From contig NZ_CP031148.1 in the NCBI RefSeq assembly GCF_003342675.1, positions 1,488,001 to 1,552,000 on the forward strand: a stretch of 64,000 bases of DNA, written 5' to 3'. The notes below the pieces were generated by a model. That model was not told the DNA's origin, ran no database searches, and saw nothing but the letters and a program-made list of their open reading frames with translations. The stretch is from Haloplanus rubicundus (GTDB lineage: Archaea; Halobacteriota; Halobacteria; Halobacteriales; Haloferacaceae). This document shows, piece after piece, positions 43,757 to 53,353 of the stretch. The position numbers were made by a program, and so were the translations under genes. Positions within the stretch are counted from its first letter, which is position 1; every line of letters begins with the position of its first letter.

Positions 43757-46700
43757 TCACTCCGAATCCCGACAGGCACTCGCCTCCCACGAGGTACATC
43801 TCGGCTCCGGCCACGTCCCCGCACGCTCGTCGGCGTTCCCGTCCACGTCGCCGACGCCGCCACGGTACGCCGGGACGGCGACGGCGACGACCGTTCCCGT
43901 CTCGAAGGCGACCCGTTCGTCGTGGCCGAGTCGCTCCGGCGCCCCGTCCCCGTCGACGTCCAGTCGCACCGCCGAGCCGTCGCGGACGTACCTGACCGCC
44001 GCCCCCGGCGTCGACGCCGGCGCACCGCGTCGCGTCCGGAGCGTGAAGCGGGCGTACGCCCCTCGAACCGACACGTCCCAGACGTTCACCGTCGCGTACC
44101 AGTACTCCGGCACCGGTGCGACCGGCAGTCCCGCCGCGACGCGGCCGAACGAGCCGTTCAGATACCTCGATCTGACCCGGTCGCTCGCTTCCGAAATCGC
44201 CCGCTCGGTGGCTCGCTCCCGAACCCGCGTCAGCGTCTCGTTGACCGCCTTCTCGGCAGTCCTCGCCGCCGCGGTTCGGCGGACGGCCACGAACGCGGCG
44301 TCGAGGCGCGTCTCCAGTCGCTCCCGACGCCTCTCGCTCGGGTCGGACGCTCGCGCGTCGGCCGCGGCGGCGATGGCGGCGGCGAGCGATCCGTTACTCG
44401 CCGCGAGCGCTCGTCGGCCGGTCCCATCCCATCGGGCGACGCCCTCGTCGACCGCAGCCCGCGCCGCCGAGCGCGTGAGTTGCGTCTCGTTCCGGACGAT
44501 ACGTCGCGCACGTGCCCTGATGACGGCCATCGAGTCGTCCACCGATTCCCGGAGCCGCCGGCGTGACTCGGGCGTCGATCCGTTCGATATCGACTCCGAG
44601 GCGATCAGGGTGTGTCCAGCCGTCCGGAGTCGTACCCCCGTTGGTCCGCCGACCCCCTGCTCGACCGTCGCGTCGGCGGCGTCGCCGTACGGCACGGTGA
44701 ACAGGTTGGTGTTCTTCGCCGAGAGCGGGTGGTACGGGCGCGAGGGTGGAACGCCGGACGCCCGGTCGTGACTCACCGACGTGACCGTGAGATACGCCGG
44801 CGACCCGTCCGGGACGACGACGACCGGACCGCCGGGCGGGGACCCGGGGAGCGACGTCTGCCGTATCGGTGTCGGCGTGTTCCGAAGACGGAAGATGTCG
44901 TGCAGTCGCTCCGTGGAGCCGACGCCGACCCGATGGAGCACCGCGTCGAACGCTCGCTGCGTCTCGTTGTGGTTCGCCGACCGCCGCTCCAGTCGTCGAA
45001 TCGTCTCGTCGAGCAGCGCGGCCCGGGCGCCGTATCGGCCCCGGTCCGCCGCGCCGTAATACTCGTTCGGGGCGTCGATCAGCGTCGCCCGTCGACGGCG
45101 GAGTTCGGCCGCCAGCCGCTCGGGTGGGTTCGTCGTGTAAGTCGCGACCCGCCCCGCGCTCACCGAGACGGAGACGTTGGCGAGCTGGCCACGGAACGCG
45201 GTCAAGTTCTCGTTCGTCCACGAGCGGAGGTCGGCCGGCCGGTCACCGTAGACGGTCCGTTTGCGGACGTCGAGATCGCGGGCGGCGACGGCGGCGGCGA
45301 CCGCGTCCCGACCACCCTGCTCGTCGACGAGCCGCCGAGAGGCCTTCGCCGACACGTTCGCGAGGTTCGGGCCGTCGAGCGGGCCACCGCGTTCGAAGCG
45401 CGGACGCGTCGGTCGATCCGGTGCCGTCCCGTTCGGGGCGTATCGCCCGACCAGCGTCACGCCCACCCGATACCGTTCGGTCCACTCGCCGCCCGTGGTC
45501 CTCGTCTCGTTTCCGCGCCGCCACGTCCACGTCACCCGTCGGTCGAGTTCGACGTGTCTGGCGAACCCGTCGAACCGACGTTCCCCGGCCCGGGCGTCCG
45601 GCGTCGGCCCGACGCTCGACTCGACCGTCGGGTTCGCGCTCTCGTCGGTGTCGACGAGCGACCACCCCTCGCCCGGGGACTCGAACTCCGGACGGGGCTC
45701 CGCGTACGTCTGCCGCCGCGTCGTTCGGAGCTTCGCCTCAACCCGATAGGCCGCCCGGAGGACCTCGCGTAGCGACCGGTTCGACCGGACCGAGTCCGTC
45801 CGGAGGCCGGCCAGGGCTCGCCCCGAAATCGTTCCCACGTCGACGTCCAGCCGCCGGTTCGGAGACGCGTTGTCCGCCCCGTGTCGGGGCGGAAGCGACG
45901 CCGACGGCTCCCGGATCGCGTTCGGCCGCGGGAGGACGCGCTCGGCCATCGAGCTGTCGACCGGTGCCCCGGCCGCGAACTCCTTCACCCCGAATTCGAG
46001 CCGTGCGCGCTGCATCGCCTCCCGGCCCTCGGGGTCGCTCCGCCCGAACGCCTCCCGCTGTGCTTCGAGCACCGCGCCGTTGGTCGACAGCTCCACGTGA
46101 CGGTTCGCGACGACGTTGGCGATGGGCGCCGTCCCGTAATGTTGGGCGTAGCCGCGCGCCCACGCGATGGGGTAGAGTCGCGCGCTCAACCGACGGCCAA
46201 GCCCCGGCCCGTCGAGCGGCCCGCGGTTCAGCCGCGTCTCGAACGCCGTCGCCCTGTCGTGAAGCGTCAACACCGGCGTCGAGACAGTCACCGTTCGATC
46301 CCGTCGCTCGCTGGCGACGACCCGCCCCGACTCCAGCGCGGTGACGGTCAAGTTGCGGACCGTCACGCGGAGGGCGGTTCCGTTCTCGACCCCGCGAATC
46401 TCGATTCGTTCCATGCCGCGTTGGAGTTCGGCCGGCGTCGTCGCCTCCGGAAGCGTAGCGGCGGCGGTCACGTCCCCCCGGCGGTACCGCGTCACCGACA
46501 GTCGCTCCTGGACGCGCAGATAGATCCGCAGCCGGAGGGCGTCCCGAAACGGCGTCGAGTCGCTCAACAACCGCCCGTACGGCGTCTCCGCGGGAGCCGT
46601 CACCGGCTCCGCCGCCGCCTCGCGCGCCGCCTCCGCGACTCCCGACCGAAGGGCGGCCGTCGCCTCCGCGGACGACCGCTCCATCGCCGCGTCGACGCCA

Positions 46701-46825
46701 CGGTCGACCCGATCCGGTCCCTGCGTCGAGATGGCCGCACCGAACGTCGACGCACCGACGAGGAGCACGATGCCAACGAGCGCGAAGGGGACGCGCCCCC
46801 GCCGGTCCTCGGCGAACCGGGTCAC
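43757..46825 (-). CDS. Large single-span surface protein of the pilus/secretion-like cluster (DUF7286-like)
   Basis: A 1022-residue protein starting GTG at 46825, coupled to the gene before (GTGA). The N-terminus TRFAEDRRGRVPFALVGIVL has a charged start, an RRG and one membrane helix, like a class III (prepilin) signal. All the rest is outside: it holds 15 N-glycosylation sequons (for example NGT, NLT, NAS, NET, NVS), mostly in Thr/Arg/Glu-rich, coiled stretches such as RRRLRESVDDSMAVIRARAR. It resembles the haloarchaeal DUF7286 family by position and length, from memory. A frame open up to 48004 is not used because it overlaps three other genes. Function unknown; likely a surface or pseudopilin-tip component. 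Confidence 0.85.
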   Translation of the reverse strand: MTRFAEDRRGRVPFALVGIVLLVGASTFGAAISTQGPDRVDRGVDAAMERSSAEATAALRSGVAEAAREAAAEPVTAPAETPYGRLLSDSTPFRDALRLRIYLRVQERLSVTRYRRGDVTAAATLPEATTPAELQRGMERIEIRGVENGTALRVTVRNLTVTALESGRVVASERRDRTVTVSTPVLTLHDRATAFETRLNRGPLDGPGLGRRLSARLYPIAWARGYAQHYGTAPIANVVANRHVELSTNGAVLEAQREAFGRSDPEGREAMQRARLEFGVKEFAAGAPVDSSMAERVLPRPNAIREPSASLPPRHGADNASPNRRLDVDVGTISGRALAGLRTDSVRSNRSLREVLRAAYRVEAKLRTTRRQTYAEPRPEFESPGEGWSLVDTDESANPTVESSVGPTPDARAGERRFDGFARHVELDRRVTWTWRRGNETRTTGGEWTERYRVGVTLVGRYAPNGTAPDRPTRPRFERGGPLDGPNLANVSAKASRRLVDEQGGRDAVAAAVAARDLDVRKRTVYGDRPADLRSWTNENLTAFRGQLANVSVSVSAGRVATYTTNPPERLAAELRRRRATLIDAPNEYYGAADRGRYGARAALLDETIRRLERRSANHNETQRAFDAVLHRVGVGSTERLHDIFRLRNTPTPIRQTSLPGSPPGGPVVVVPDGSPAYLTVTSVSHDRASGVPPSRPYHPLSAKNTNLFTVPYGDAADATVEQGVGGPTGVRLRTAGHTLIASESISNGSTPESRRRLRESVDDSMAVIRARARRIVRNETQLTRSAARAAVDEGVARWDGTGRRALAASNGSLAAAIAAAADARASDPSERRRERLETRLDAAFVAVRRTAAARTAEKAVNETLTRVRERATERAISEASDRVRSRYLNGSFGRVAAGLPVAPVPEYWYATVNVWDVSVRGAYARFTLRTRRGAPASTPGAAVRYVRDGSAVRLDVDGDGAPERLGHDERVAFETGTVVAVAVPAYRGGVGDVDGNADERAGTWPEPRCTSWEASACRDSE

Positions 46826-52757: not shown

Positions 52758-53353
52758 AGGAGCCGACGGATGCGCTCGGCGAGCGACCGGTCGGCGTCGG
52801 CGTCGTCCGGCTTCGCCTCCATCGCCGCTGCGTCGGCGAGGGCGTCGTCGGTGCGGGCGGCCACCTCGCCGGTCAACGAGCCGTCACGGTCGCGACTGCG
52901 GTCGCCGACGCGACCCGCACCCTCACTCCGGTCGCCCGCGACGCTCGGTTCGCGCCGGCTTGAGTCGCGTTGCGAGGTGGTTCGTGCGTCGCGAGGTGGG
53001 GCCGTGGCGTGGTCGCGGTCGGTCGGTTCGTTCGCGACGCTCGTCTCGTCCCGACCGCTCACCGCTTCGCGCACCGCCGCCAGTTCGGATTCGAGGCGGT
53101 CGACCCTGGCGACGGCGGCGTCCGCTCGCCGCTCGACCGCTTCGTCGACTGCCCGGACGCCGCCGGCGAAGCCACGGAGCGCCTGCACCGCCGCGTCGAG
53201 TTCGGCCACCCGGGCCTCGATGTCGCCGACGGTCGCCTCGAGTTCGTCGAGGCGGGCGTCCATCCGTGCGGCCTCGGGGAGGCCGTCGTCGGCGTGACCG
53301 TCGGTTATCGTGCGTTCGAGGGCGGCGACGCGTTCTTCCAATCTGTCGTCCAT
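52754..53353 (-). CDS. Coiled-coil protein at the head of the pilus-like cluster (DUF7310-like)
   Basis: A 199-residue soluble protein. Residues ~1-90 are an extended coiled coil of DDRLEERVAALERTITDG type; an acidic, Arg/Asp/Ser-rich, low-complexity middle (TSVANEPTDRDHATAPP) and a short C-terminal helix (SLAERIRRLL) follow. DUF7310 by gene order, from memory. The ATG at 53353 is preferred to one at 53374 because a minus-strand TTTTA box (53381-53386) is about 30 bases upstream of 53353 but too close to 53374. It opens the 9.6-kb minus-strand run and is divergent from the CetZ gene. Confidence 0.78.
   Translation of the reverse strand: MDDRLEERVAALERTITDGHADDGLPEAARMDARLDELEATVGDIEARVAELDAAVQALRGFAGGVRAVDEAVERRADAAVARVDRLESELAAVREAVSGRDETSVANEPTDRDHATAPPRDARTTSQRDSSRREPSVAGDRSEGAGRVGDRSRDRDGSLTGEVAARTDDALADAAAMEAKPDDADADRSLAERIRRLL

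Follow-up and report, generated by a model that had tools for sequence, protein, structure and literature searches.

Positions 43757 to 53374 of a 64,000-nucleotide stretch of the Haloplanus rubicundus genome (the window; contig NZ_CP031148.1 of GCF_003342675.1, here C2:1488001-1552000; genome 3.77 Mb, three contigs) hold eight co-oriented minus-strand genes. With a probability of about one half, we read them as a machine of the type IV filament superfamily, of the haloarchaeal 4F or pilB2/C2 kind, which would build a filament or pseudopilus carrying the DUF7286 protein as a giant tip subunit. The system is real, intact and widespread, and has been published as a prediction. A preceding sequence-only reading had called it uncharacterised, which did not stand, since PMC4858521 (Makarova et al. 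2016) and PMC9856176 (Brown & Duggin 2023) had predicted it by matching marks; its view of a type IV filament-family machine that is neither an archaellum nor a PilA/PilB3-type locus was borne out. New here are the independence of three pilin-like genes (the trio DUF7285, DUF7284 and DUF7286) from the motor, a probable promoter split between motor and pilin-like genes, and the co-occurrence of DUF7286 with PilB2.

Gene content and motor

Read 5' to 3' on the minus strand, the gene order was DUF7310, DUF7311, ATPase, F protein, DUF7283, DUF7285, DUF7284 and DUF7286. All eight were open frames with a single terminal stop. Their junctions were overlaps of 4-20 bases or a spacing of 32; only the F gene and DUF7283 stand further apart, at 121 bases. 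The composition given earlier (a coiled-coil protein, a single-span protein, an ATPase, an F-family platform protein and four more single-span proteins) was recovered intact, and the proteins that had been recognised only as DUFs were assigned to the six DUF families named above. Their Pfam E-values ranged from 8e-26 to 0, and because every match exceeded its curated cut-off these genes are not GC-rich frame noise. By a hydropathy scan, DUF7311, DUF7283, DUF7285, DUF7284 and DUF7286 each have a single span, at the N-terminus, and the F protein has at least seven; the scan placed none in the ATPase or the coiled-coil protein.

The ATPase assignment was firm, with a T2SSE match above cut-off (64.6 bits) and, as best solved relatives, the archaeal GspE-type 2oap (E 1e-29) and CpaF (E 7e-18); FlaI was also among its relatives. 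Within the first 195 residues lies a conserved domain holding C25-x-C27, C52 and C64. Cys52 and Cys64 were present in 37/37 sequences and Cys25 and Cys27 in 32/37, the remaining five being gaps, and a further selection of 23 rows showed no change at any of the four. For the platform protein the earlier identification was kept but not its firmness: the T2SSF match was below cut-off (13.4 bits), and the assignment came from profile-profile comparison (hhalign) with the genome's four further platform proteins (83% probability, E 1e-5, 146 columns, second F domain).

A Tad-like pilus, in which the trio would do the work of TadE/TadF/TadG and a stand-alone PilA-family pilin from another place in the genome (arCOG02981) would make the shaft, is an unlikely alternative. 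Bacterial Tad systems consist of TadA, TadB/C and TadE-F-G, the minor subunits rising in size. The locus shares with the bacterial Tad/Flp pilus a TadA-type ATPase (best NCBIfam model TadA-family TIGR03819, E 1e-35; CpaF among the best solved relatives), a TadC-type platform and three subunits of rising size in fixed order; seven stand-alone Pilin_N matches exist in the genome, all outside the window, and PMC4858521 proposes arCOG02981 as the 4F shaft. However, TIGR03819 scored 123.6 bits against a cut-off of 373, no TadE/F/G-type match was found for the trio in Pfam or NCBIfam at E 0.05, no Flp pilin lies at the locus, and the shaft pilin is a candidate only.

The statements that no PibD-type peptidase, PilA-type pilin or archaellum gene is nearby were confirmed. 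The sole A24 prepilin peptidase match of the genome is at C2:218537, the nearest Pilin_N gene lies 27.5 kb past the end of the window, and the archaellins, at C2:1.855-1.862 Mb, stand beside a different ATPase (1.864 Mb) and not beside this one. Another ATPase, with a platform protein and a Pilin_N gene, at C2:1566690-1579772, just outside the window and ~25-38 kb from the operon, probably marks a further type IV pilus locus.

Class III-like signals and structure models

RG followed by a hydrophobic stretch, as noted before, is present in DUF7285 (47676) and DUF7286 (43757). Directly before the span, R[GA]xVPFA occurred in 129/134 DUF7286 sequences, the five misses being near variants, and 116/130 DUF7285 sequences had a motif of the R[GA]..EP type. 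R[AG]xS[TA] was found in 59/132 DUF7284 orthologues. For these counts, rows with a profile match starting past position 12 were left out, and the patterns had been composed after viewing the alignments. In this genome DUF7284 begins MGVTSTVLDA, and the R-A/G is missing here and in close relatives. No class III motif was seen in the N-terminal alignments of DUF7283 and DUF7311. The earlier suggestion of class III-like signals in DUF7285 and DUF7286 holds; the other three single-span proteins of this locus lack one. The motif sites are kept in distant homologues (RGVTEP, RAYSTTVDA and RARVPF in L196; RAYIPF in L194), their place being retained in L194, L196, L197 and L210 and less exact in L195 and L198. 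Taken across orthologues, the motifs support a pilin-like export route for DUF7285, DUF7284 and DUF7286, three of the five single-span families. Profile comparison of six of the ten possible pairs of these families gave no convincing homology, the best (DUF7283-DUF7284, 18%) being the membrane span. An internal duplication in DUF7286, suspected by eye, was unsupported.

The structural check suggested earlier was carried out for two of the DUF proteins. The DUF7286 model (36 sequences) had a mean predicted local distance difference test (pLDDT) score of 79 and a predicted template modelling (pTM) score of 0.63, with the first 40 residues poor. Mixed helix/sheet domains occupy ~42-285 and ~325-632, and residues ~715-880 are mostly helical. 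They are followed by a beta domain (900-1002), whose conserved D-rich loops (D960-G961, G990-VGD-G996) could bind calcium. DUF7284 (26 sequences; pLDDT 88, pTM 0.82) was modelled as a single alpha/beta domain. The search of solved folds gave no convincing match for either model. For DUF7286 the best Foldseek E was 0.06 (a SecB-like meander) and the best VIA Z 5.6 (root mean square deviation 6.8, 125 aligned); for DUF7284 they were 0.18 and 6.1 (deviation 4.4 over 85 aligned residues, in a portion of ribosomal S3). Both Z values are below the stated noise level of ~7-8, and an unlisted match is not proof of a new fold. Profile searches for solved-structure relatives of DUF7286, DUF7284 and DUF7285 likewise yielded none that convinced; a resemblance of DUF7284 to ribosomal uL16 (E 0.04 and above) was judged to be chance, and DUF7285 had a weak match (E 1) to a solved archaeal flagellin-type chain.

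Conservation and co-occurrence

The haloarchaeal synteny that had been proposed as a check was found: in 40 loci of 9-16 kb from other genomes, selected for strong DUF7286, each of the eight genes was present in 38-40. Together with the window (41 loci), profile matches numbered 39 for DUF7310 and DUF7311, 40 for the ATPase and 41 for the F protein, DUF7283, DUF7285, DUF7284 and DUF7286, with CetZ in 33, DUF5791 in 37 and the epimerase in 34 as neighbours. Some of the absences are contig ends, and apparent gene swaps in L043, L050, L058, L059, L068 and L070 are believed to be due to stop-to-stop frame sorting. The closest DUF7286 relatives by identity were those of Haloplanus ruber (64%) and Haloplanus sp. 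LUM.53 (61%), and a homologue exists in Haloferax volcanii (named control).

DUF7286 was detected in 224 of the 292 Halobacteria genomes (about three quarters) and the PilB2 N-domain also in 224 (E <= 1e-8). Both were present in 215 and neither in 59 (Fisher p 4e-42, a test that ignores shared ancestry), and the pairing persists where the genes are separated (0.28 Mb apart in G033).

Among the genomes holding one partner, G012 has DUF7286 only. Its locus, L212, retains a C-terminal remnant of DUF7286 in a frame that also matches DUF7310, adjoined by CetZ, the epimerase and DUF5791, and is a decayed copy of the operon. The Cys-type ATPase domain was seen without detected DUF7286 in G044, G073, G157, G209, G236, G250, G253, G256 (genus g39) and G224, which may use another pilin set. 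The DUF7286 match of L015 (G100) contains one in-frame TAG.

A separable pilin-like trio

Of 294 genomes drawn from the phylum, 76 carried DUF7286 (41 Halobacteria, 35 others), and it was detected in the named control Methanosarcina acetivorans, a methanogen. In two non-halobacterial loci (L196, L197), DUF7285, DUF7284 and DUF7286 stand together in the same order as in haloarchaea, with no ATPase or F match (E < 0.05) within 19.9 kb; in L196 the Pfam scores were 50.7 bits for DUF7284, 227 for DUF7286 and 24.7 for DUF7285, just below its cut-off of 27. The haloarchaeal ATPase N-domain was found, weakly, in one of ten non-halobacterial DUF7286 genomes. Fourteen further haloarchaeal regions (L199-L209, L211-L213) were mostly chosen for a divergent, fragmentary or unlinked DUF7286. 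Pilin-like genes with no motor genes inside 20 kb were present in eight of them (L200, L202-L205, L208, L209, L213), the full set in four (L199, L201, L206, L211), a set split across strands in L207 and remnants only in L212.

The non-halobacterial loci and the motorless haloarchaeal loci indicate that the trio is not bound to the PilB2 motor, and it probably predates the haloarchaeal operon. Its spread fits the modular view of PMC4858521 and makes it less likely that haloarchaea acquired the entire regulon recently. PMC9856176 considers a possibly recent mobile acquisition; the phylum-wide trio and the L212 remnant instead favour an old system with losses.

Promoters and surface charge

At about -30 of DUF7283, at least 6 of 7 positions were A/T in 112/129 loci, the best six positions averaging 90% A/T. 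By the same count the inner genes gave 5/114 (DUF7311), 1/87 (F), 2/111 (DUF7285), 1/132 (DUF7284) and 4/119 (DUF7286), and intermediate values were obtained for DUF7310 (53/89), CetZ (39/86), the ATPase (26/68) and DUF5791 (23/109). Start codons were chosen by rule for these counts, and loci without a start near the expected place were dropped. A TATA box 30 nucleotides before the start codon is the look of a leaderless haloarchaeal transcript. Because of the conserved box before DUF7283, motor genes and pilin-like genes are treated here as two transcription units, probably transcribed separately, and a separate DUF7283 promoter agrees with independent control of the motor and the pilin-like cassette. 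The box is weak in this window (ATTCAAGT). A TATA-like box, AGATTTTAG, lies ~30 nucleotides upstream of 53353, for which reason this start is better than 53374 for DUF7310.

The mean net charge of DUF7283, DUF7285, DUF7284 and DUF7286 was -1.7 per 100 residues (-6.1 to +6.1) in 77 loci with ATPase, CetZ and DUF5791. Loci without CetZ and DUF5791 averaged -12 (five with the ATPase) and -13 (eight without it). Two charge classes were thus observed over L040-L159 and L199-L213, near-neutral or basic when CetZ/DUF5791-linked and strongly acidic elsewhere. Charge also rises with the guanine-cytosine (GC) content of the locus (r ~0.4). The contrast is not GC alone, since DUF7284 and DUF7286 of a Haloquadratum locus (L095) with 51% GC are near zero.

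A device for DNA uptake or cell-cell exchange would suit near-neutral to basic single-span proteins (up to +6 per 100 residues in the linked loci), which could meet acidic partners, but it is very improbable. The GC trend reduces charge as a sign of DNA binding to a weak lead, and no competence gene was seen in the operon. In PMC7749143, most time points under Haloferax mating conditions showed lowered cetZ2 RNA, and deleting pibD had no effect on mating.

Tentatively, and with the odds against it, these observations may be joined in one proposal. The trio would be an ancient, self-contained pilin-like cassette with a giant tip subunit of unsolved fold, cotranscribed with DUF7283 in haloarchaea from its own leaderless promoter. 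It would have spread or descended across the phylum independently of the motor, using whichever PilB/PilC is available, and one haloarchaeal line would have become tied to CetZ2 while its surface charge moved from acidic to near-neutral or basic.

Relation to published systems

Judged by its coiled coil, ATPase cysteines, CetZ and epimerase, the locus matches the haloarchaeal 4F or pilB2/C2 system. PMC4858521 describes a halobacterial subclade 4F type IV pilus with a unique coiled-coil protein, a Cys-containing ATPase N-terminus and an FtsZ-like neighbour, names the additional variable Cys-rich ATPase N-terminus as a frequent 4F mark, and predicts pilins in these loci. The Cys N-domain, a TadC-type platform, predicted pilins, the coiled coil (DUF7310) and the FtsZ/CetZ neighbour are all shared, the last two in the numbers of loci given above. 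We infer the one-to-one identity of DUFs and arCOGs from the description, and the major pilin proposed there lies outside this locus.

PMC9856176 describes the pilB2/C2 regulon next to cetZ2 and calls its biological role unknown; cetZ adjacency and the epimerase, DHH-type and phosphodiesterase-like neighbours are shared with the present locus. PMC6491452 counts five pil operons in Haloferax, of which pilB1 and pilB3 were studied, and assigns PilB2 to clade 4C together with PilB1, at variance with the 4F assignment suggested here by coiled coil and CetZ. The Haloferax PilB3/PilA, PilB1 and PilB4 loci belong to the same superfamily and probably use the same kind of PibD, but their ATPases are of another subclade, according to the papers, and their pilin-like proteins are others. 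In PMC4292770 the Halobacterium salinarum pil-2/pilB2 locus is raised in surface-attached cells, a doubtful case, since pilC2 has an internal stop; it may or may not be the same system. The literature search, with subscription papers mostly outside its scope, found no paper using the names DUF7311, DUF7283, DUF7285, DUF7284 or DUF7286, none for Haloferax locus tags guessed to lie between HVO_0738 and HVO_0753 and, in the available text on PilB2 in Haloferax and other haloarchaea and on CetZ2 with pili, no experiment on the pilin-like genes.

Proposed mechanism and its weighing

In the proposed machine, the ATPase would drive the platform protein, which would draw single-span subunits out of the membrane; the genome's one PibD-like peptidase, whose gene lies outside the locus, would cut their signals. 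DUF7285, DUF7284 and DUF7286, with DUF7283, would form an initiating tip complex like minor pilins, GspH-I-J-K or TadE-F-G, in which DUF7286 would be the outermost, ~1000-residue subunit contacting a surface, another cell or a substrate. The smallest of them, DUF7285, might also make a short shaft, or the shaft could be a PilA-family pilin encoded elsewhere. The DUF7310 coiled coil and the Cys-containing ATPase domain would regulate the motor, CetZ2 may position the machine, and the output would most likely be adhesion or cell-cell contact.

Motor homology, membrane spans, the DUF7285 and DUF7286 motifs, gene order, co-occurrence and promoter boxes were observed and speak for this reading, as do the one A24 peptidase of the genome, the trio staying together in L196 and L197, and the pilins that PMC4858521 predicts in 4F loci. 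Several points weigh against it. No DUF of the locus matches a known pilin by sequence (Pfam, NCBIfam, profile search of solved structures), and neither Foldseek nor VIA matched the model of DUF7286 or of DUF7284 to a solved pilin. DUF7284 is without the motif in 73/132 orthologues, this one included. The +1 residue of DUF7286 after R-G/A is charged or bulky (mostly R), which is unusual in a cleaved prepilin, and the protein may be an uncleaved anchor. Nine of the 224 DUF7286 genomes are without a detected PilB2 N-domain and 9/224 show the reverse. Tip position, filament formation and adhesion are steps that we infer.

A secretion pseudopilus, with the same motor working a short DUF7283/DUF7285/DUF7284/DUF7286 piston under the S-layer to export folded proteins without a long filament, is rather unlikely. 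Motor, platform and four pilin-like single-span subunits of differing size recall the type II secretion pseudopilus (GspE, GspF, GspG-K), no PilA-type major pilin is in the locus, and the giant subunit would be too big for a shaft. Against this, the locus shows no pseudopilin similarity and no major pseudopilin or substrate, no dedicated substrate gene being conserved in the operon, and according to PMC9856176 the same neighbours flank cetZ2 even without pilus genes.

For the type IV filament-family machine, a separate phylum-wide pilin-like unit with its own promoter and fixed motifs would turn a list of DUFs into testable genetics in Haloferax volcanii, and it is relevant to the relation between the archaeal cytoskeleton (CetZ) and surface machines.

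Neighbouring features

Downstream (3') of DUF7286, the minus strand carries DUF5791, an epimerase-like gene and then a DHH-type gene, the latter two named from sequence and PMC9856176, not by search. The DUF5791 gene is probably not part of the machine; it is presumably arCOG04674, fitting the description in PMC9856176.

Table 1. Coordinates of the eight-gene run and adjoining features within the window.
Feature	Position	Strand	Evidence
CetZ tubulin-like gene, divergent neighbour	53440-54519	+	CetZ_C 213 bits
DUF7310 coiled-coil protein, no span	52754-53374	-	PF23991 90.8 bits; start 53353 preferred
DUF7311 single-span protein; N-terminus short (M-I-R), without class III motif	52329-52757	-	PF23993 131.9 bits; N-terminal alignment
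PilB2/TadA-family assembly ATPase, N-domain C-x-C ... C ... C	50359-52296	-	T2SSE; TIGR03819; 2oap; CpaF; Cys columns
F-family platform protein of PilC2/TadC type, seven or more spans	48641-50362	-	hhalign 83%; weak T2SSF
Palindromic repeat, ~85 bp	48555-48642	-	fold z -6.3; 40 genome places
Probable promoter region of second transcription unit (TATA ~-30 of DUF7283)	48520-48555	-	A/T-rich in 112/129 loci; weak box here
DUF7283 single-span protein; N-terminus mostly acidic among orthologues, without class III motif	48052-48519	-	PF23954 181.3 bits; alignment
DUF7285 small single-span protein, class III-like signal (RG, then QVEP), candidate smallest pilin-like subunit	47676-48074	-	PF23956 127.8 bits
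DUF7284 single-span protein, soluble alpha/beta domain	46822-47685	-	PF23955 303.6 bits; model pLDDT 88
DUF7286 single-span protein, 1022 residues, R[GA]xVPFA signal; ectodomain of several domains with D-rich loops towards the C-terminus	43757-46825	-	PF23957 1143 bits
DUF5791 protein, flanking	43294-43725	-	PF19104 172.4 bits

A near-perfect palindrome of ~85 bp lies between the F gene and DUF7283, and the gap folds with -59.6 kcal/mol (z -6.3). A conserved terminator hairpin after the F gene was ruled out, as the element is a genome repeat and was absent from the same gap of four relatives (L040, L041, L080, L089). With 77 matches at 40 places in the genome (77-100% identity), it resembles a small mobile palindrome and probably does not belong to the machine.

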